Part shown: positions 20,598 to 29,422 of the stretch, in pieces
Layout of the letters: the number at the start of each line of letters is the position of its first letter
Position numbering within the stretch: the first letter of the stretch is position 1
Source: Dyella japonica A8
GTDB lineage: Bacteria; Pseudomonadota; Gammaproteobacteria; Xanthomonadales; Rhodanobacteraceae
Assembly: GCF_000725385.1 (NCBI RefSeq)
Contig: NZ_CP008884.1
Location: 2,108,001-2,172,000, forward strand
DNA length: 64,000 nt
Reading direction: 5' to 3'
Program-made: the position numbers and the translations under genes
The notes under the pieces: model-generated
Told to the model about the DNA's origin: nothing
The model's input: only the letters and a program-made list of their open reading frames with translations
Database searches by the model: none

Positions 20598-22064
20598 TCA
20601 GCCCAGTGTCTTGGACGTACGCGCCGGCGGAAACACCACTTCCACGCGCAGGCCGCCGGTGCTGCCATTGAGGAAGCGCACCGTGGCGCGGTGGCGTTCG
20701 GCGATGCGCTGCACGATGGCAAGGCCCAGTCCCGTGCCTTCCTCGGTGATGCCGGGCACGCGGAAAAAGCGTTCGCCAAGGCGTTCCAGGAAGGCCGGGG
20801 GCACGCCCGGGCCATTGTCTTCCACGCTGATGCAAGGGCCTTCGCTTTGCACCGAGACGCCCACGGTGACGATGCTCTTGCGGCCGGCGTAGCGCATGCT
20901 GTTGTCGATCAGGTTGTCCAGCATCTCCTGCAGGGAGATGCGGTCGCCGTCGATCCATAGCGGACCCGCTGGCCCTTCATACCCAAGATCCACGCCCGCC
21001 GCGATGGCGTCATGCACGCGCACGCTCAGCAGTTCGGGAATCAGCTGGGCCAGGTCGAGCAGGCACAGCGGCGCGGTTTCACTGAGTTCCGGCGACTGCG
21101 CGCGGGTCAGCGCGAGCAGCTGGCTGGACGTGCGGCTGGCGCGTTGGGTGAGCCGCAGGATGTGTTGCAGGGCGTCGGCCACGGTTTCCTTGCTGGGATC
21201 GATCTGCGCGCGCTCCACGTGGACGCGCAGGCCTGCCAGCGGCGTCTTCAGCTGGTGCGCCGCATCGGCGATGAAGCGATCCTGCAGGGCCAGCATGCCG
21301 CGCTGGCGCGCGAACAGGCCGTCGATGGTGCGGGTGAGCGGCAGGATTTCCACCGGCACGTCGGCATCGCCGATCGGTGCAAGGTCGTGTTCGCGTGCGC
21401 CCAGGCGCGCGGTGAGCGGGTCTAGCTGGCGCAGGCCCACGCGTACCCCGTAGAACACCAGCAAAAACACACTGGCGATCAGCATGGCTTGCGCCGGGAT
21501 GCTCAGCAGCAGGATCTCGCGTGCACGCTGGTGACGGTCGTGCAAGGTCTCGGCCATGGTGACCGTGAGCTGGTCGCTCGGATCCTGCAGGTTGGGAATG
21601 CGTACCGTGGCGGCGCGCAGCTCACGACGTTTTTGCTTGGGGGTGTAAAGCGAGGTGCTGTAGAGCGTGGGCTCGCCGTCGGAATTCGCGGCGCTCAGCG
21701 GTGCCGGCTGCAGCTCGGCCGAGCCGGCCAGCAGACCATGCTTCTGGCTGCTGACGTTGAAGTAGTTGTGCCCTTCCGGCGCGTATTCGAGCAGGAAGCG
21801 AGCCTGCGGCGAGATCTGCCCGCCCAGGTCTTCCTGGCTGAGCATCTGGGCGAGCGTCATGGCGTCGTCGCCCAGGTCGCGGTCGTGCACGTGATTGGAA
21901 TAGATCAGCGCGCCGCCGTAGGTGATGAGGCTTTCCACCACCAGCAACAGCATCAGCGGAACCAGCAGCGAGGAGAGCAGGCGACGCCGCAGGCTGGGAC
22001 GGCCATCGGGCTCAAGCATGCGGTAGAGCCATGGATCGTCCCGCTTCGGCATCGCGTTGCTCAT
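20598..22064 (-). CDS. Two-component sensor histidine kinase, TctE/QseC-like
   Basis: 488 residues. Transmembrane helix 1 is at about 31-55, with a periplasmic 2CSK_N-type sensor domain to about 185, transmembrane helix 2 to about 210, and a HAMP-like linker. HisKA carries H270 in IADAAHQLKTPLAGL. The HATPase has NLIDNSMRYAG, VEDNGPGVP and EGTGLGLAIV. The AAHQL(K/R)TPL form and the N-terminal domain match the TctE/QseC subgroup, which often responds to carboxylates or envelope signals. It overlaps the response regulator by four bases. The pair is divergent from the flavinylation operon at 22991. Confidence 0.93.
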   Translation of the reverse strand: MSNAMPKRDDPWLYRMLEPDGRPSLRRRLLSSLLVPLMLLLVVESLITYGGALIYSNHVHDRDLGDDAMTLAQMLSQEDLGGQISPQARFLLEYAPEGHNYFNVSSQKHGLLAGSAELQPAPLSAANSDGEPTLYSTSLYTPKQKRRELRAATVRIPNLQDPSDQLTVTMAETLHDRHQRAREILLLSIPAQAMLIASVFLLVFYGVRVGLRQLDPLTARLGAREHDLAPIGDADVPVEILPLTRTIDGLFARQRGMLALQDRFIADAAHQLKTPLAGLRVHVERAQIDPSKETVADALQHILRLTQRASRTSSQLLALTRAQSPELSETAPLCLLDLAQLIPELLSVRVHDAIAAGVDLGYEGPAGPLWIDGDRISLQEMLDNLIDNSMRYAGRKSIVTVGVSVQSEGPCISVEDNGPGVPPAFLERLGERFFRVPGITEEGTGLGLAIVQRIAERHRATVRFLNGSTGGLRVEVVFPPARTSKTLG

Positions 22065-22750
22065 GCTTCGGATTCCTTGCCTTCCTTCACTTCTTCCAGC
22101 AGGTAGCCAAGGCCGCGGATGGTGCGCACCTGCGTGCCTGAGTCAGCGAGCTTGCGGCGCAGGCGGTAGATGGCGATATCCAGGCCGTTGTCGGTGAGTT
22201 CCTCGTCCCAGCTGCACAGGGCCTCGACCAGTTGCGCGCGGCTGGTCACGCGGTCGGGGCGCGCGGCCAACGCTTCAAGCAAGCCGAACTCGCGGGCGGT
22301 GAGTTCGAGCGGCTTGTCGTCGATCCATGCGCGGTGGCCGGGCAGATCCAGGCGAAGCCGGCCGATGGTGAGTTCCGGTGCGCCCTGTGAGGTGTAACGG
22401 CGCAGCAGGGCACGCACGCGCGCCTCGAACTCGGCCAGCGCGAAGGGCTTCACCAGGTAGTCGTCGGCGCCGAGGTCGAGCACGCGTACGCGCTCGCGCA
22501 GGCCTTCGCGCGCGGTAATCACCAGCACGGGCAGGCCGGTGCCGCGCTTGCGCAGACGCTGCAGTACATCGGCGCCGTCGAGGTTGGGCAGGCCCAGGTC
22601 AAGGATAAGCAGGTCGTACGGCGTGTCACGGAGTGCCGCGTCGGCCTTGGCGCCGTCGGTGACGGCGTCCACCGCATGGCCGCCCTGGCGCAGCGAGGCG
22701 CTCACACCGGCGGCAATAGAGGGGTCGTCCTCGGCAATCAGGATGCGCAT
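22061..22750 (-). CDS. OmpR-family response regulator, TctD/QseB-like
   Basis: 229 residues: receiver domain with ED at residues 7-8, phosphoacceptor D51 in LLILDLGLPNLDG, and conserved K in LVKPFAL; then a winged-helix domain (LTAREFGLLEAL..., DNGLDIAIYRLRRKL, GLGYLL). The RILIAEDDP start at 22750 is the only sensible start. First gene of a two-gene operon, with the kinase start inside its end (ATGA). The 240-bp region upstream is shared with the PepSY gene and contains a Fur-like site, so iron may influence either direction. Confidence 0.94.
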   Translation of the reverse strand: MRILIAEDDPSIAAGVSASLRQGGHAVDAVTDGAKADAALRDTPYDLLILDLGLPNLDGADVLQRLRKRGTGLPVLVITAREGLRERVRVLDLGADDYLVKPFALAEFEARVRALLRRYTSQGAPELTIGRLRLDLPGHRAWIDDKPLELTAREFGLLEALAARPDRVTSRAQLVEALCSWDEELTDNGLDIAIYRLRRKLADSGTQVRTIRGLGYLLEEVKEGKESEA

Positions 22751-22815
22751 ATCGGTTTCCAGAAGGGGCGGTAAATCGGCGCTTGGGGAAGCGCGTCATC
22801 CATGGTGATTGAATT

Positions 22816-22834
22816 GCGAGTGATTCTCATTTGT
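22816..22834. promoter_or_regulatory. Fur-box-like site between the two-component system and the PepSY operon
   Basis: The reverse strand reads ACAAATGAGAATCACTCGC, matching about 12 of 19 bases of the Fur consensus GATAATGATAATCATTATC, including the core AATGAGAATCA. It is placed about 155 bases before the PepSY gene and 65 bases before the response regulator gene. Function of the downstream genes in envelope redox/iron fits Fur control. Confidence 0.55.
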
Positions 22835-22990: not shown

Positions 22991-23635
22991 ATGGAATCGG
23001 CGGCACGGTCGCACAACGGCAAGATGGGATCGGGCCGCGCGTTCTGGCTCAAGCAGCTCCATCAATGGCACTGGATCAGCTCCGCGCTGTGCCTGGTCGG
23101 CATGCTGTTGTTTGCCATCACGGGCTTCACGCTCAACCACGCCGGGCAGATCGAGGCGCAAACGACCACCGTGCATCGCAGCGCCCAGTTGCCAGCGCCG
23201 CTGCTCAAGGCCGTCGCAGGTGACGTCGAACGCAAGGGCGTGGCGCTGCCTGCCGCGGTGGCGGACTGGATCGCGGGCGCACTCGACGTGGACGTCGCGG
23301 GGCGCGCTGGCGACTGGTCATCCGACGAAATCTACATCGCCATGCCGCGCCCCGGCGGCGATGCGTGGGTAAGCATCGATCGCGAGACGGGCAAGGTGGA
23401 AGCCGAGCGCAGCTCGCGCGGCGTCATCGCCTATCTCAACGACCTGCACAAGGGGCGCCATGCCGGACCTGCGTGGGGCTGGTTCATTGATGTCTTCGCC
23501 TTGGCCTGTGTGATCTTCTCGGTCACCGGCCTGCTGCTGCTGAAGATGCACGCCGCGCAGCGCGGCGCGACCTGGCCGCTGGTGGTGTTCGGGCTGGTGC
23601 TGCCGCTCGTGCTCGCGTTGATCTTTATCCATTGA
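22991..23635 (+). CDS. PepSY-associated transmembrane protein
   Basis: 214 residues. A short cytoplasmic N terminus is followed by LKQLHQWHWISSALCLVGML (first membrane helix, histidines at its start), a periplasmic PepSY-like domain (about 60-140: WVSIDRETGKVEAERSSRG, LNDLHKGRHAG) and two C-terminal helices (about 155-178 and 188-213). The H-x-W...H pattern and LHKGRHAG are typical of PepSY membrane proteins of the PiuB/FoxB-like kind, where histidines can ligate haem. First gene of a five-gene operon downstream of a Fur-like site. I infer it passes electrons across the inner membrane toward the flavinylated DUF2271 protein. Confidence 0.82.
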   Translation: MESAARSHNGKMGSGRAFWLKQLHQWHWISSALCLVGMLLFAITGFTLNHAGQIEAQTTTVHRSAQLPAPLLKAVAGDVERKGVALPAAVADWIAGALDVDVAGRAGDWSSDEIYIAMPRPGGDAWVSIDRETGKVEAERSSRGVIAYLNDLHKGRHAGPAWGWFIDVFALACVIFSVTGLLLLKMHAAQRGATWPLVVFGLVLPLVLALIFIH

Positions 23636-23645
23636 AGCGGGAAAT

Positions 23646-23713
23646 GAGTGAAGAAGAGTGAGAAGTATGAGTCGTGCTTTTCTCTGTTTTCCCACTTCTC
23701 CTTACTCACTTCT
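23646..23713. repeat. Inverted repeat in the PepSY-DUF2271 gap
   Basis: GAGTGAAGAAGAGTGAGAAG at the left and ACTTCTCCTTACTCACTTCT at the right form an imperfect hairpin that fills the gap between two operon genes. Its arms resemble the outer part of the terminal repeats at 12598-12636 (GTGAAGAGGCGTGAGAAGTA). It could attenuate or stabilise the operon mRNA. Confidence 0.5.
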
Positions 23714-23734
23714 TGCCCTTGCCAAGGAATAACC

Positions 23735-24250
23735 ATGCGTCGTCTCTCCCTGACTCTTCCCGCGATCCTGCTGACGGCACCGGCCGTCGCGGCTGACCTC
23801 AACGTCACCGTGCAGATTCCCCAGCTCAACGTGGCGGAATATCACCGCCCCTATGCGGCGGTGTGGGTGGAGCGCGAGGATCATTCCGTCGCGACGCAAC
23901 TGGCCGTCTGGTATGCGCAGAAAGAATCGAAGGAGGGCGCCGGCACCAAGTGGCTGCCCGAGTTGCGCCAGTGGTGGCGTCGCGGTGGCCGCGAGCTGGA
24001 GCTGCCGGTGGATGGCGTATCCGGCGCAACGCGTCCGGCCGGCGACCAGAAGCTGAGCTTCCACGAAGGCAAGGCGCCGTTGGGACAACTCGCGCCGGGC
24101 AAGTACGAATTGGTGGTGGAGGCCGCACGCGAAGTCGGTGGGCGCGAAGTGGTGCGCGTGCCGTTCACCTGGCCGGCGAACGCACCGCAGCAAGTCACCG
24201 CGCAGGGCAGCAGCGAGCTGGGCGCCGTCAAGCTCGACCTCGCCCCGTAA
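23735..24250 (+). CDS. DUF2271 protein, predicted flavinylated periplasmic redox carrier
   Basis: 171 residues with a signal peptide (RRLSLTLPAILLTAPAVAA). The DUF2271 pattern is clear: QIPQLNVAEYHRPYAAVWVE, VATQLAVWY, W.PELRQWWRRGG and VDGVSGATRP (each in short form). The segment D93-G-V-S-G-A-T99 fits the ApbE flavinylation consensus D-x-x-(S/T)-G-A-T; the threonine would carry FMN through a phosphoester bond. The ATG at 23735 is preceded by AAGGA. It lies two genes before apbE in the same operon, which supplies the modifying enzyme. I infer a covalently bound FMN and a role in extracytoplasmic electron transfer. Flavinylation itself is predicted, not shown. Confidence 0.88.
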   Translation: MRRLSLTLPAILLTAPAVAADLNVTVQIPQLNVAEYHRPYAAVWVEREDHSVATQLAVWYAQKESKEGAGTKWLPELRQWWRRGGRELELPVDGVSGATRPAGDQKLSFHEGKAPLGQLAPGKYELVVEAAREVGGREVVRVPFTWPANAPQQVTAQGSSELGAVKLDLAP

Positions 24251-24268
24251 CCGAAGGAGAACGACATC

Positions 24269-25081
24269 ATGATGAAGCACTCGTGGAAGTGGGGCGTGCT
24301 GGCCCTGGCGTTGGCGCTGCCGATGGGCGCGCAGGCCCACAAGATGTGGCTGGTGCCCTCGGCCACCAATGTGTCCGGCGCGGATCCGTGGGTGACGGTG
24401 GATGCGGCCGTGTCCAACGACCTGTTTTATCCCGACCACATGCCGGTGGCGCTGGACCGCGTGGCCATCACCGCGCCGGATGGCCAGACGGCCAAAGCCG
24501 AGAATGCAGTGACCGGCCAGTACCGCAGCGTGTTCGACGTGCATCTCACCCAGCCGGGCACGTACAAGATCGCCGCGGTGAACGGCGGCCTGTTCGCCAG
24601 CTACGAAGCGGATGGCCAGAAGAAGCGCTGGCGCGGCGACGCGGCCGAGCTTGCCAAGGCGATCCCCGCCCACGCGAAGAACGTCGAGGTTTCCGAGTCG
24701 ATCAACCGCGTGGAAACCTTCGTGACCAACGGCAAGCCCAGTGATGGCGCGCTCAAGCCCGGCGGCAAGGGCCTGGAGCTGGTGCCGGTGACGCGCGTCA
24801 CCGACCTTGCTGCGGGCGAGGCCGCCACCTTCCAGTTGCTGCGGGACGGTAAACCGGCGCCAGGCCTCAAGGTCATGGCCATCGCCGGCGAGACGCGCTA
24901 TCGCAATGCGCAGGAAGAGATCGACGCCACCACCGACAAGGACGGCAAGTTCAGCTTCACCTGGCCGCACGCCGGCATGTACTGGGTGAGTGCGAGCACG
25001 CAGGACGACAAGTCCAGCATCAAGCCGGCCAAGCTGCGTCGCCTTTCGTACGCCGCCACGTTGGAAGTGTTGCCGCAGTAA
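24269..25081 (+). CDS. DUF4198 periplasmic protein
   Basis: 270 residues with a signal peptide (GVLALALALPMGAQA) and mature start HKMWLVPSATNVSG, the hallmark of DUF4198 (NikM/CbiK-like periplasmic domains, where an N-terminal histidine may bind metal). Later come beta-sandwich segments, including GKPAPGLKVMAIAGETRYRN and TDKDGKFSFTWPHAGMYWV (in short form), which look like a carboxypeptidase-regulatory or transthyretin-like repeat. SD AAGGAGA lies 8 bases before the ATG. It sits between the DUF2271 and apbE genes, so it is probably a periplasmic metal-binding or substrate-delivery partner of the redox chain; that role is inferred. Confidence 0.87.
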   Translation: MMKHSWKWGVLALALALPMGAQAHKMWLVPSATNVSGADPWVTVDAAVSNDLFYPDHMPVALDRVAITAPDGQTAKAENAVTGQYRSVFDVHLTQPGTYKIAAVNGGLFASYEADGQKKRWRGDAAELAKAIPAHAKNVEVSESINRVETFVTNGKPSDGALKPGGKGLELVPVTRVTDLAAGEAATFQLLRDGKPAPGLKVMAIAGETRYRNAQEEIDATTDKDGKFSFTWPHAGMYWVSASTQDDKSSIKPAKLRRLSYAATLEVLPQ

Positions 25082-25108
25082 TGCGGTGGATGGCGTGGAG
25101 TGGTGTCG

Positions 25109-26080
25109 ATGAGTGATCCCGTCGTGCAGTCCGTGCAGGGCGAAACCATGGGCACCTTCTGGTCGGTGCGTGCGGTGGTGCCGGCGGCGCTGTCGCTGGC
25201 GTCGCGTGTGAACGATTTGCAGGCGGTGCTCGATCTGGTCGACGGGCAGATGAGCACCTACAAGCCTGCTTCCGCGCTGTCGCGTTTCAACGCGGCGCCC
25301 GGCGGCACCTGGCATGTGCTTCCTGCCGAGTGCTTCGAGGTGGCAAGGCATGCGTTGCAGGTGGCGCGCGAAAGCGATGGCGCCTACGACCCCACGGTTG
25401 GCCCGCTGGTCAACCTGTGGGGGTTTGGGCCGGATGCCGCGCGACGCGAGCCGCCTGCGCGCGATTCGATCGAGGCGGCGCGCGAACGCATCGGCTGGTG
25501 GCGCATCAAGCTGGATGCCGCGACGCACAGCCTGTTCCAGCCCGGTGGTATTTATCTTGACCTGTCGTCGGTGGCCAAGGGCTACGCCGTGGATCAGGTA
25601 GGGCAGTACCTCGACAACACAGGCATCGCATCATGGCTGGTGGAAGTCGGCGGTGAACTGAAGGGCAAAGGCAGGAAGCCCGATGGATCGCCCTGGCGTA
25701 TCGGCATCGAGCGCCCTGGTGCGGCGACGGGTGCGGTGCAACGCATCGATCAGCTGAGTCAGGTGGTTTGCCTGTCTGGCCGTGCGATTGCCACCTCCGG
25801 TGACTATCGCCGCCGTTTTGACGCCCAGGGCGTCACCTATTCGCATCACATTGATCCGCGCACCGGCTGGCCGGTGCCGCACGCTGTCGCCTCGGTCAGC
25901 GTGCTGGCCAGCGAGGCGATGCAGGCCGATCCGTTGGGAACGCTGATGACCGTGCTCGGTCCCGAGCAGGGCATGGCGTGCGCCCGTAAGCGGGGGCTGG
26001 CCGTGATGTTCATCCTGCATGGCGCACAGGGCCTGGAAGAACGCCTGTCACCTGCGTTCGAGGCCGCGTTGGCGTCATGA
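25109..26080 (+). CDS. apbE: FAD:protein FMN transferase ApbE
   Basis: About 323 residues. It transfers FMN from FAD to threonine or serine of extracytoplasmic proteins. Motifs: GETMGTFWSV at the start, AYDPTVGPLVNLWGFGP, DLSSVAKGYAVDQV (FAD/Mg site), VEVGGELKGKGRKPDG, ATSGDYRRRF and HHIDPRTGWP. I see no signal peptide or lipobox from the ATG at 25109, which is unusual for a periplasmic ApbE; GTG codons just upstream at 25100 and 25103 do not add one. Some ApbE proteins lacking signals are cytoplasmic. The likely substrate is the DUF2271 protein two genes upstream. It overlaps the next gene by four bases (ATGA). Confidence 0.93.
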   Translation: MSDPVVQSVQGETMGTFWSVRAVVPAALSLASRVNDLQAVLDLVDGQMSTYKPASALSRFNAAPGGTWHVLPAECFEVARHALQVARESDGAYDPTVGPLVNLWGFGPDAARREPPARDSIEAARERIGWWRIKLDAATHSLFQPGGIYLDLSSVAKGYAVDQVGQYLDNTGIASWLVEVGGELKGKGRKPDGSPWRIGIERPGAATGAVQRIDQLSQVVCLSGRAIATSGDYRRRFDAQGVTYSHHIDPRTGWPVPHAVASVSVLASEAMQADPLGTLMTVLGPEQGMACARKRGLAVMFILHGAQGLEERLSPAFEAALAS

Positions 26081-27717
26081 ACGTCACGCCTGTCGCGTCG
26101 CCGCGTCCTGCCTGGGGCAATGTCGTGCTGTGCTCCTTGCTTGGCGCGCTGGTGCTGGGGCTGATGGCATGGCATGCGCGCGAAGGGGAATGGCACTCGC
26201 CGGGCGCGTCGCGCTGGTGGTGGGCATCCGCCGTGTTGCTGGCATGGGTTGGTTTCACGGGTTGGATGGGCTGGCATCGCCGGGAACGGCCGAGCAGGCG
26301 AAACGCGCTGGCGTCATCGACGCATGCGCCGGAGACGGATCCCGTGTGGATCGTTTTCGCCACGCAGACCGGCACCGCCGGGCAATGGGCGCGGCAAACC
26401 GCGCAGAGCCTGCAGGCTCATGTGGCGGTGCAGCTGGTTGAGCTTGGACAGATCGATGCGGCCACACTCGCCCGTGCCCGCCGCGTGCTGTTCGTGGTCA
26501 GCACCACGGGCGAAGGCGACGCGCCGGACAGCGCGGCAGGCTTTGTCACCCGATGCATGCGCGCACCACAAGCACTGGCGGCCTTGCACTATGGCCTGCT
26601 CGCCCTGGGTGACAGCGATTACGACAACTTCTGCGGATTCGGCCGCGCCCTGCAGCAATGGTTGCAGCAGAGTGGCGCGACGCCGTTGTTCGATGCCGTG
26701 GAAGTGGACAATGGCGACCCCGCTGCGTTGCGCCATTGGCAACATCACCTGGCGTTGCTTTCCGGGGAGGCCGAATGGCCAGACTGGCAGGCGCCTGACT
26801 ACCAGCGCTGGCAGTTGACGGAACGCACGCTGCTCAACCACGGCAGTAGCGGCGGGCCTTGTTTTCATCTTGCGCTGCGCCCGCTCGACGGCGAGTCGAC
26901 ATGGCAGGCAGGCGATCTGGTGGAAATCGGGCCCAGACACGCCTCGTCCGTGATCGACGCATGGCTGGCCGCGCGAGGGCTCGATGGCACGGCAAACGTC
27001 GAACACCGGGGACGCCGTGCACCGTTGGGAGATTGGCTGGCCGCTAGCCATTTGCCAGAGGCCGGGCATGCGCACGGCGACACGCCGCAACAGATCGTCG
27101 CCGCACTGCAGGCGCTACCGCATCGCGAATACTCGATTGCCTCGGTGCCGTCCGATGGGGCCTTGCACCTGCTCGTTCGCCGCATGCAGCGCGCGGACGG
27201 TTCGCTGGGCATCGGTTCCGGATGGCTCACGCAACACGCCGGAGTGGGGGGCGACATCGCCTTGCGCATCCGCGCGAACCCCGGGTTCCACATGCCCGCC
27301 GATGAGCGGCCGCTGGTGCTGATAGGCAACGGTACCGGACTGGCTGGTTTGCGCGCCTTGCTGAAGGCGCGCATCGAGGCGGGCAGGTCGCGTCACTGGC
27401 TGCTGTTCGGCGAGCGTGAATCCACGCGCGACTTCTATCATCGCGACGAGATCATGAACTGGCACCAGCAGGGCTGGATCGAACGGATCGACCTGGCCTG
27501 GTCGCGTGAGGGCGACACGCGCGACTACGTGCAGGATCGATTGCGCGCGCGCCGCGATGTGTTGCGTCAATGGGTGGGCCAGGGTGCGGCGATCTACGTG
27601 TGCGGCAGCCTGGCCGGCATGGCGCCCGGCGTTGATGCAGTGATGCGCGAAGCACTGGGCGACGATGCGGTCGAGCGCCTGCGCGAGCAGGGGCGCTACC
27701 GGCGGGACGTCTACTGA
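26077..27717 (+). CDS. Membrane-anchored flavodoxin/FAD-NADPH reductase (sulfite reductase alpha-like)
   Basis: 546 residues. Two N-terminal membrane helices (about 12-32 and 46-65) are followed by a flavodoxin domain (VWIVFATQTGTAGQWARQTA; FVVSTTGEGDAP; LGDSDYDNFCGFGRAL) and an FAD/NADPH reductase domain with REYSIAS (FAD), GNGTGLAGLRALL (NADPH), LLFGERES and YVCGSLAGMAPGV. This diflavin layout resembles CysJ and P450 reductase, but with a membrane anchor. No sulfite reductase gene is nearby. In this operon it probably takes electrons from NADPH on the cytoplasmic face and delivers them to the PepSY membrane protein. Ferric-siderophore or copper reduction is a reasonable but unproven output. 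Confidence 0.9.
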   Translation: MNVTPVASPRPAWGNVVLCSLLGALVLGLMAWHAREGEWHSPGASRWWWASAVLLAWVGFTGWMGWHRRERPSRRNALASSTHAPETDPVWIVFATQTGTAGQWARQTAQSLQAHVAVQLVELGQIDAATLARARRVLFVVSTTGEGDAPDSAAGFVTRCMRAPQALAALHYGLLALGDSDYDNFCGFGRALQQWLQQSGATPLFDAVEVDNGDPAALRHWQHHLALLSGEAEWPDWQAPDYQRWQLTERTLLNHGSSGGPCFHLALRPLDGESTWQAGDLVEIGPRHASSVIDAWLAARGLDGTANVEHRGRRAPLGDWLAASHLPEAGHAHGDTPQQIVAALQALPHREYSIASVPSDGALHLLVRRMQRADGSLGIGSGWLTQHAGVGGDIALRIRANPGFHMPADERPLVLIGNGTGLAGLRALLKARIEAGRSRHWLLFGERESTRDFYHRDEIMNWHQQGWIERIDLAWSREGDTRDYVQDRLRARRDVLRQWVGQGAAIYVCGSLAGMAPGVDAVMREALGDDAVERLREQGRYRRDVY

Positions 27718-27726
27718 CCCGGCGGC

Positions 27727-28296
27727 TCAGGCCGCCGGAAGGCGGGCCAGCACGATCTCGCCGCCGCCCTCGATGCGTATGGGGTGGCCGGGGATCGGGT
27801 CGATCCACAGCATGTCGTTCGCTTCCAGCTGCTGCGAACGGTGATCGGCGATCACCTTCGCTCGCCCGGAAAGCAACAGCAGAAACCAGCGCCATCCGGT
27901 GGGCGCGAGCAGCACCATGGCGCCGTTCAGCGGGCGGGCAATGAGTTCGCCCTGGGCATCGCCGCGCAGCTTGAGGTTGAAGGTGCGCGTGGGTGCGGTC
28001 GGCAGGCAGGCGCGCGGTTGGTTGCCTGCGTCGAACTCGGTCATCTGGAAGCGGGTGAGGTGTTGCACACGACCGTCGGGGAAGGCGATGTCCACCGGGG
28101 CGTCCAGCGGCACGAACTGCCGCCGCAGGTCAGTGTGTGCTGGAAAATCGACCTCCTGCTCCATGCCGATCATCGTCATCTGCCACTGCCAGTCATCGTC
28201 CGTCGGCCCGCAGGCGATCGTCGTGATGAATGCCGTGCCCTTGGCGCAGTGCGCGCCCAGAAGGCTTTCGGCAGGCAGGCGGCTGAGCTGGCTCAT
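27727..28296 (-). CDS. HutD/Ves family cupin-like protein
   Basis: About 189 residues. The pattern follows the HutD/Ves family: N-terminal ..LP.ES..G...., then TTIACGPTDDDWQWQMTMIG, ..FP.HTDLRRQFVPLD, and a C-terminal cupin half (MLWIDPIPGHPIRIEGGGE). The canonical WKNG motif near the N terminus is not evident. E. coli Ves is cold-induced; HutD occurs in histidine-utilisation operons, but no hut gene is seen here. The start at 28296 overlaps the end of the upstream acetyltransferase gene (ATGA). Convergent with the flavoreductase gene; a GC-rich hairpin spans the stop codon. Confidence 0.75.
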   Translation of the reverse strand: MSQLSRLPAESLLGAHCAKGTAFITTIACGPTDDDWQWQMTMIGMEQEVDFPAHTDLRRQFVPLDAPVDIAFPDGRVQHLTRFQMTEFDAGNQPRACLPTAPTRTFNLKLRGDAQGELIARPLNGAMVLLAPTGWRWFLLLLSGRAKVIADHRSQQLEANDMLWIDPIPGHPIRIEGGGEIVLARLPAA

Positions 28297-28832
28297 GCCG
28301 AGGCGCGGCGCTTTTCGAGGCAGGGGCGGTAGTACGCGAAGACGTGGTTGTGCGCACCGAAGAAATCCATGTCTTCGATGTGTTCTCCGCCCAGCCGTTC
28401 GGCGACGCGGTCGGATGCTTCGTTGCCGATCTTCACCAGGCTGATGACGCGGGGCGCGGTCATGGAGTGCCACACGAAATCCAGGATGGCGCCGCCGGCT
28501 TCGGTGGCGTAGCCGTGGTGGCGGAAATCGGGCTTGAGCATCCAGCCGAGCTCCAGGTCGGGCCAGCCTTCGGGACACATGAGGCCGGCGCGTCCGATGA
28601 ATTCGCCGGTGTCCTTCAGCTCCAGCGCCCACATGCCGTAGCCGCGCAATTGCCAGTGGCCGATCAGCATGGCCAGCGAGCGCCACGCGTTGGTACGGTC
28701 CAGCGGCTGGCCGTCGCCGATCCAGCGGGTGCTCGCCGGGTCGGCCAGCATCGCGGCGTAATCGTCGAAGTGGCGCTCGGCGAGAGCGGTAAGGCGCAGT
28801 CGCGCCGTTTCAATGACAGGTACGTCGATCAT
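28293..28832 (-). CDS. GNAT acetyltransferase, RimJ/RimL type
   Basis: 179 residues with the Acetyltransf_3 pattern: IETARLRLTAL near the start, WALELKDTGEFIGRAGL, LELGWMLKPDFRHHGYATEA (acetyl-CoA loop RHHGYATE), and late SLVKIGNEASDRVAERLG. Such proteins acetylate N-terminal or small-molecule amines; the substrate here is unknown. It overlaps the HutD-like gene and follows the SET gene by 5 bases, so SET-GNAT-HutD is probably one operon. Confidence 0.88.
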   Translation of the reverse strand: MIDVPVIETARLRLTALAERHFDDYAAMLADPASTRWIGDGQPLDRTNAWRSLAMLIGHWQLRGYGMWALELKDTGEFIGRAGLMCPEGWPDLELGWMLKPDFRHHGYATEAGGAILDFVWHSMTAPRVISLVKIGNEASDRVAERLGGEHIEDMDFFGAHNHVFAYYRPCLEKRRASA

Positions 28833-28837
28833 GATCT

Positions 28838-29317
28838 TCAGCTAGCAAGTCGGGTGCCATCGAGCAGGACCGCCAAAGCGTGAGTGCTCGTCCGAAGGCT
28901 TTCGATCCATGGCAGGCCCACGATGCGCTGCCCGCTGGCAGCGTCGACGAAGGCTTCTTCCTCGCCCGGAGGCAACAAGTGGCGGTAATCCACCGTCATT
29001 TCCGTGCCGGCCGGCAAATCGCGCGCGGCAAACACGAAACCCAGATGCCACAGCCCCGTGGGTTCGAAGCTGTGGTTGATGTAGCACTCGTCCGGCCAGT
29101 CCGGGGACACGGTGTAACGGTCCTCGAACCAGCGGGCGCTCGCGTAAAGCTGGGCCGAAAGCTCCGGCGAGCCGGTCAGCTCGTCGTAGCGATACGTGCG
29201 GTCAATGGCGTCCGGCGCCGTCACGATCTGCCCGGCGGCGACGTCTTCAAGTAAGAACAACCCCTGACCCGCACCAGCAATGTTCGACGCGGCAATGCGA
29301 TAACGCGGAACAATCAT
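28838..29317 (-). CDS. SET domain-containing protein
   Basis: About 159 residues, a stand-alone SET domain. Seen are the N-terminal GAGQGLFLLEDVAAGQIV (G-x-G loop binding S-adenosylmethionine), CYINHSFEPTGLWHLGFVFA (the INHS.-pseudoknot motif) and ARDLPAGTEMTVDYRHLLPP (the catalytic tyrosine motif DY). There is no post-SET cysteine cluster. Bacterial SET proteins may methylate lysines on own or host proteins; no target is suggested by context. I chose the ATG at 29317 (MIVPRYRI); an in-frame start at 29359 adds 14 residues. First gene of a probable SET-GNAT-HutD operon. Confidence 0.85.
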   Translation of the reverse strand: MIVPRYRIAASNIAGAGQGLFLLEDVAAGQIVTAPDAIDRTYRYDELTGSPELSAQLYASARWFEDRYTVSPDWPDECYINHSFEPTGLWHLGFVFAARDLPAGTEMTVDYRHLLPPGEEEAFVDAASGQRIVGLPWIESLRTSTHALAVLLDGTRLAS

Positions 29318-29422
29318 GGCAGCCCTAACCGATGGCAAGGCGGCCGAGTGTAGGCGCATCCGGCGAGGGATTCCATACCTCGCCGGCTCTGATTCTTGAA
29401 CGCAAGTGGTTGATGGGTTTGG

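Follow-up and report, generated by a model that had tools for sequence, protein, structure and literature searches.

How does a secreted protein receive a covalent flavin when the transferase encoded beside it carries no export signal? This question is raised by a five-gene operon of Dyella japonica A8, located in a 64,000-nucleotide stretch of contig NZ_CP008884.1 (positions 2,108,001 to 2,172,000, forward strand; hereafter the window). The operon encodes a small PepSY_TM-like membrane protein, a DUF2271 protein, a DUF4198 protein, the flavin adenine dinucleotide (FAD):protein flavin mononucleotide (FMN) transferase ApbE, and a diflavin reductase. We find that this ApbE is leaderless and that DUF2271, its putative substrate, has a leader. 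Taken as a whole, the locus would encode a ferric-iron-reducing PepSY-like system, repressed by Fur, in which a cytosolic ApbE flavinylates DUF2271 before export. We put the probability of this reading at roughly 0.6.

Five co-conserved genes form a PepSY-like flavinylation operon

Mapping the open reading frames (ORFs), we found the five genes on the + strand with spacings of 99, 18, 27 and -4 bp, the last being a 4-bp overlap. The original prediction of a one-directional cluster with short gaps or overlaps thus holds, and a Pfam match supports each family name that it gave. The genes encode, in order, a PepSY_TM-like small membrane protein (22991-23635; PepSY_TM_like_2, PF16357, E 7e-85; PF03929, E 7e-12), the secreted DUF2271 protein (23735-24250; PF10029, E 1e-50), the secreted DUF4198 protein (24269-25081; PF10670, E 8e-62), ApbE (25109-26080, in an ORF open from a GTG at 25100; PF02424, E 4e-84), and a membrane-anchored diflavin reductase, predicted to use reduced nicotinamide adenine dinucleotide phosphate (NADPH), with flavodoxin and FNR modules (26077-27717; Flavodoxin_1, 1e-23; NAD_binding_1, 3e-8).

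A PF16357/PF03929 protein adjoining ApbE and DUF2271 makes the five genes a system of a published kind, the "PepSY-like" flavinylation cluster of PMC8238504 (Meheust et al. 2021). That paper reports 3220 PepSY-like clusters, 2833 of them with DUF2271 and 1500 with DUF4198. The window operon shares with them the PF16357 protein, ApbE, a DUF2271 with SGAT, a secreted DUF4198 and a proposed role in iron reduction. It differs in that its ApbE is leaderless and its electrons would come from a separate diflavin reductase; 1077 PepSY-like genes in the same paper have their own NAD-binding domain. A closer counterpart is CC3059-3063 (CCNA_03155-03159) of Caulobacter crescentus, which has the same five families as annotated, arranged identically, and is controlled by Fur (PMC3751524). 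This operon is linked to iron by a fitness defect in ethylenediaminetetraacetic acid (EDTA) (PMC3751524, PMC12004947). In contrast to the window, no divergent two-component system is mentioned in the passages of these accounts that we consulted. The original prediction had regarded several parts of such a system as not settled; they are less open now, given the class in PMC8238504, the Caulobacter set in PMC3751524 and a nickel-bound DUF4198 protein in PMC12537917.

Searching with PF10029, we obtained matches in 79 of 250 genomes of the taxonomic order and in 70 of 398 genomes of the phylum, 65 of the latter over the cut-off. We fetched 80 order-level and 40 phylum-level regions around DUF2271. 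Dropping 5 duplicates and 3 regions (L164, L166 and L167) without a match to our own DUF2271 model left 72 order-level loci. The gene order PepSY-DUF2271-DUF4198-ApbE-reductase is complete in 56 of these 72 and in 14 of the 40 phylum-level loci; within the fetched stretch, 8 phylum-level loci are without ApbE only, 7 without the reductase only, and 7 without both. Co-conservation was counted in these DUF2271-driven sets, as the window and 22 further loci picked by reductase similarity all carry the full operon and are biased in this respect. Because the order is kept in other genomes, the five-gene arrangement is more than chance, and the co-conservation on which the original prediction staked itself is borne out. 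Two Rhodanobacter loci (L028 and L030) have a reductase homologue, and none of the other four proteins had a match within the fetched stretch, which in L030 starts only ~2.5 kb upstream of the reductase homologue.

The operon ApbE carries no export signal

The ApbE of the window begins MSDPVVQSVQGETMGT, and an in-frame stop lies ~20 codons before its TMGT motif. Only ~12 residues precede TMGT, with no hydrophobic stretch, and the protein has neither a signal peptide nor a lipobox. We considered a mis-called start and rejected it, since the in-frame stop leaves no space for a leader. The domain itself is intact, with a full-length PF02424 match and an FMN transferase as its closest solved chain (5mgy, E 1e-68). 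The original prediction had overlooked this missing export signal.

A leader-bearing ApbE encoded elsewhere was also considered and rejected: the genome (one contig, 100% completeness) has two ApbE matches, and both are leaderless. The second adjoins an FMN_bind protein with a leader and an ISGAT motif, so that both putative ApbE substrates of the genome, DUF2271 and the FMN_bind protein, have leaders. If the only available ApbE is cytosolic, DUF2271 either gets its FMN before export or stays unmodified.

The second ApbE belongs to another flavinylation cluster, outside the window at contig positions ~3970900-3974000 (L178, 971-3772, - strand), which consists of a DUF6662 protein, the FMN_bind protein and the leaderless ApbE. 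A 169-residue multi-helix protein of this cluster, with several His and no Pfam match, is a candidate membrane cytochrome.

DUF2271 is the putative FMN carrier

The window DUF2271 is the sole PF10029 match of the genome at a threshold of E 0.001. Its leader, MRRLSLTLPAILLTAPAVAA, is seen both by hydrophobicity and by eye. Residues 93-99 read DGVSGAT and contain the published flavinylation motif [ST]GA[ST]; the SGAT lies at 24020-24031 (+ strand), with the predicted acceptor Thr99 at 24029-24031. This Thr is kept in 134 of 135 aligned DUF2271 rows, and the window and its Dyella relatives retain SGAT-type sites. Flavinylation of a DUF2271 protein is shown in PMC8238504 for one protein, from Amantichitinum.

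We also searched the other four proteins of the operon for an alternative ApbE target and rejected this option, as none has a conserved motif. None of the aligned rows of PepSY, DUF4198, ApbE and the reductase has the extended pattern D..[ST]GA[ST]. The bare [ST]GA[ST] was seen in 17 of 105 rows of the reductase and in 1 of 109 of ApbE; the window reductase itself has an SGAT.

Leaderless ApbEs recur beside secreted DUF2271 proteins

We called leaders by a hydrophobicity score (line 1.5, every possible start) together with reading the N-termini by eye. Among 109 ApbEs, we judged 82 leaderless, and the other 27 bear a leader, a lipobox or an anchor; taking out four ApbE-DUF2271 fusions and L156 gives 82 and 22, respectively. 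Restricted to the DUF2271-driven sets, the count is 60 leaderless and 26 leader-bearing ApbEs out of 86. For 68 of the 82 leaderless calls, the score stays under 1.5 at all possible starts. The partner DUF2271 scored a leader in every case (82/82). All 23 phylum-level ApbEs were judged leaderless. In nine loci from other groups (L074, L182, L193, L199, L202, L207, L210, L211 and L217), the ApbEs resemble one another in an N-terminal stretch, [RE]-[VI]-[LA]-[IV]-P, which lies ~15-30 residues before TMGT in place of a leader.

Of 52 genomes checked with a leaderless operon ApbE, 43 have no further ApbE match: 21 of 23 at phylum level and 22 of 29 at order level, where 30 genomes had been picked from the leaderless-looking ones and one (G138), without ApbE in its fetched stretch, was set aside. 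Of the seven order-level genomes with further ApbEs, six (G039, G046, G085, G111, G195 and G211) encode an anchored or leader-bearing one; the second ApbE of G189 has neither.

Building an ApbE tree (quick IQ-TREE run, support from SH-aLRT, the approximate likelihood ratio test, only), we found that 20 leaderless Dyella-type rows group together (99) and are sister to three leader-bearing rows (98), within a larger leader-bearing set of the order. The Dyella lineage thus probably lost its ApbE leader, to judge from this topology. Leaderless ApbEs occur in three parts of the tree. The leader state needs at least 4 changes, of which the starred branches force 3; without the fused rows and L156 it needs 2.

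This recurrence bears on a rival reading closer to the textbook systems, in which the ApbE, despite having no leader, would get into the periplasm by some unrecognised route and modify DUF2271 on that side of the membrane. According to the review PMC12052999, ApbE is typically secreted, and a periplasmic location was essential in an early study; related operons of the same order have a leader or lipobox on their ApbE. Such a route would have to operate on an enzyme with as short an N-terminus as that of the window ApbE, and in three separate parts of the tree, and we consider it unlikely.

Four order-level loci (L163, L165, L168 and L169) encode a fusion of ApbE with DUF2271, in which a leader was recognised by eye. 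The DUF2271 part of these fusions is without [ST]GA[ST], and a DUF4198 gene is nearby in 3 of the 4.

How would a flavinylated DUF2271 leave the cytosol? We considered twin-arginine translocation (Tat) as a general answer to leaderless ApbEs and rejected it, since the twin Arg does not follow the ApbE state: it is missing from 60 of 82 DUF2271 leaders whose neighboring ApbE is leaderless, and 11 of 22 have it where the ApbE bears a leader (four fused rows and L153 left out). Because those 60 leaders have no twin Arg, we propose Sec export in most lineages. The Dyella DUF2271 leaders mostly begin MRR, and Tat may serve in Dyella itself, going by these leaders.

Generalising from the survey, we propose that envelope flavinylation often precedes export: in many Pseudomonadota the sole ApbE would be cytosolic and load FMN onto precursors, the flavinylated polypeptide would pass through Sec, and the ApbE would have switched sides at least 2 times with operon and substrate kept. 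This extension is tentative, and we hold it at a little under even odds.

A predicted electron route from NADPH to the periplasm

The PepSY protein has three hydrophobic segments (25-51, 158-189 and 191-214). Its His residues are strongly conserved, with His27 and His153 in 129 of 129 rows, His50 in 124 and His187 in 114. These residues fit the His pairs by which a PepSY-like protein is reported to bind heme (PMC11334425), and we therefore predict a transmembrane heme b cytochrome, the heme being deduced from the alignment. No solved chain matched the PepSY protein.

The best solved relative of the reductase is the sulfite reductase flavoprotein CysJ (chain 6efv, E 5e-43). Against the CysJ equivalog model the reductase scored 231 bits, below the cut-off of 668. 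It contains the flavodoxin module and the conserved residues R350-x-Y352-S353, S476-R477 and Y484-V485-Q486, of which SR and YVQ are common to 6efv; we take SR...YVQ to be NADPH contacts and RxYS an FAD motif. FAD_binding_1 gave no Pfam match in the window reductase, although the R-x-Y-S stretch is conserved. One N-terminal segment (residues 11-35) is above the hydrophobicity line and a second is below it. Thus, the membrane-anchored, sulfite-reductase-like subunit of the original prediction stands as to its CysJ-like relation and one anchor segment.

Among named organisms, Dyella has the closest relatives of the reductase, with up to 77% identity. In Pseudomonas loci, the match to the window reductase is the C-terminal portion of a longer ORF. 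In the one that was scanned by Pfam (L032; ~50% identity), PepSY_TM, flavodoxin and NAD-binding domains lie in one protein, and a TonB receptor gene stands directly before it. Unlike in the window, the L032 reductase is thus part of a large PepSY_TM protein with a TonB receptor as its neighbor, and the fetched Pseudomonas loci have no match to the window DUF2271, DUF4198 or ApbE. The L032 fusion supports direct electron transfer between reductase and PepSY protein and a role in siderophore-bound iron. The route of the original prediction, from NADPH through the membrane diflavin reductase and PepSY to a flavinylated DUF2271, agrees with the motifs, the gene order and this fusion; the direction of the electrons is our inference.

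A conserved Fur-like site and the metal that is handled

Both a Fur-like site and a two-component system had been predicted at the head of the operon, and both were found. We scored 15-mers at 14 positions against a palindromic Fur consensus. The inverted repeat core TGCGAGTGATTCTCA at 22815-22829, in the divergent intergenic region, is the sole 15-mer of the window to reach 12/14. Among 129 upstream regions of the loci compared, 63 have a site of at least 12/14 and 93 one of at least 11/14; shuffled upstream regions (mononucleotide shuffles, 20 per region) reached these scores in 0.04% and 2.1%, respectively. The site is thus kept upstream of the operon, and Fur is its putative ligand by its likeness to the consensus.

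Divergent from the operon, on the - strand, lie an OmpR-type response regulator (22061-22750; Pfam; best NCBIfam models PmrA, TctD and QseB, all under cut-off) and a sensor histidine kinase (20598-22064; 2CSK_N, HisKA and HATPase_c by Pfam). Of 135 loci, 30 have such a kinase-regulator pair adjoining the operon, and every one of these belongs to the family of the window; the Fur-like site also occurs where no such pair was found, L022, L026 and L087 being examples.

Is iron the metal? The DUF4198 protein is predicted by eye to be cleaved at AQA|H, making His24 (codon at 24338-24340, + strand) residue 1 of the mature protein. His24 is present in 128 of 132 rows, and His57 (mature His34) in 106 of 132. 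A solved DUF4198 protein binds nickel with a dissociation constant of 18 nM through His1 and His18 (PMC12537917), which speaks against iron and for a reading in which the operon handles nickel or copper. Also on that side, a PepSY_TM protein supports heme-copper oxidases (PMC13038864), and the window response regulator scores, under cut-off, on a heavy-metal model. However, mature position 18 of the window DUF4198 is a Trp, invariant in a 14-row alignment, so that the reported nickel site is not reproduced there; the conserved Fur-like site, and the Fur regulation and EDTA phenotype of the Caulobacter operon, likewise point away from nickel and copper, and we find these metals quite unlikely. 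The conserved mature His34 may mark the reported nickel site shifted by a loop, or a separate site. Among solved relatives of DUF4198 we obtained only weak or no matches, and no alignment to chain 9GCB. The original prediction of DUF4198 as a candidate metal-binding partner therefore gains a predicted N-terminal His and a nickel-bound relative.

Weighing flavinylation before export

Putting these elements together, we propose that electrons of NADPH would pass to the FAD of the membrane-anchored diflavin reductase, on to its flavodoxin FMN, and from there to heme b in the PepSY protein. Crossing the inner membrane, they would reach the covalent FMN of DUF2271 and, when iron is limiting, finally periplasmic Fe(III), either free or bound to a siderophore. 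DUF4198, with its predicted N-terminal His, probably holds or passes on a metal ion, and Fur would repress the operon under plentiful iron. The cytosolic ApbE would add FMN to the DUF2271 precursor, and the flavin-bearing protein would be exported afterwards, mostly by Sec. Two published results are compatible with modification of a precursor. ApbE modifies a seven-residue tag on proteins co-expressed in E. coli (PMC12052999), and as such a tag suffices, the native target fold is not needed. Leaderless DUF2271 and ApbE constructs also gave flavinylated protein in E. coli (PMC8238504).

Several observations weigh against this proposal. The first concerns the motif. The 135 DUF2271 rows carry SGAT (50), TGPT (34), TGAT (22), SGPT (9) and rarer variants, with 6 outside the pattern used, and only 74 of the 135 have the published [ST]GA[ST]. 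Beside a leaderless ApbE the motif is present in 35 of 82 rows, against 22 of 27 beside a leader-bearing one, with TGPT and SGPT in its place. Flavinylation is therefore less sure in the leaderless-ApbE group, the SGAT of the window notwithstanding. TGPT-type sites may also be accepted by leaderless ApbEs; otherwise, some of these DUF2271 proteins would stay unflavinylated.

The same counts favor a reading in which the target of the leaderless ApbE is a cytosolic protein, and DUF2271 either is no substrate or functions with no covalent FMN. The SGAT of the window reductase would suit it, and so would the 9 of 72 order-level and 17 of 40 phylum-level loci in whose fetched stretch no ApbE was found. 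A precedent is the cytosolic ApbE of Klebsiella pneumoniae, which also has no signal peptide and, unlike the case proposed here, acts on a soluble fumarate reductase that is not secreted; PMC12052999 names cytosolic ApbEs of Klebsiella and two trypanosomatids. Yet no conserved motif was found in the other operon proteins, and the near-invariant acceptor Thr and the flavinylated Amantichitinum protein both point to DUF2271. We regard this reading as improbable.

The second group of objections concerns flavinylation of a precursor by a cytosolic ApbE, the reading that we prefer, and the leader calls behind it. These were made without SignalP, and 14 of the 82 leaderless calls, made by eye, score 1.5 or more, 8 of them among the 23 phylum-level rows. 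The Amantichitinum ApbE is called signal-peptide-truncated in PMC8238504, and we called the same-family Chitinolyticbacter ApbE (L074, score 2.13) leaderless; calls like this one may be wrong. Cys content gave no help: its mean is 2.45 in leaderless and 1.0 in leader-bearing ApbEs, but with just 2-4 switches on the tree behind it the difference does not reach significance, and we dropped it as proof of ApbE location. Our literature searches yielded no account of a flavinylated protein being exported by Sec. For this organism, the whole mechanism is drawn from sequence comparison.

Neighboring genes downstream of the operon

At the end of the operon, a convergent ORF (27727-28686, - strand) matches HutD (PF05962, residues 156-312). 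A SET-domain protein (28838-29359, - strand; PF00856, E 7e-6, above cut-off) lies ~1.1 kb downstream of the operon.

Implications for envelope flavinylation

The operon itself is already known, and it adds mainly one further iron-linked locus with a conserved regulatory site. The newer point is the leaderless ApbE beside a secreted substrate. In our literature searches we found no discussion of this combination, and the raw fact may sit in the signal-peptide predictions of supplementary file 1 of PMC8238504. That survey retained clusters if any of four target genes had a signal peptide; surveys demanding one on ApbE itself would miss such leaderless enzymes.

A leaderless ApbE runs counter to the usual view, given in PMC12052999, of a periplasmic ApbE acting on secreted targets. 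If flavinylation before export is true, it would explain flavinylated envelope proteins in bacteria without a periplasmic ApbE, and no FAD would be needed outside the cytosol. It would also mean that a protein can pass through Sec with its covalent flavin already in place. The sister lineages with and without an ApbE leader offer a ready natural experiment.

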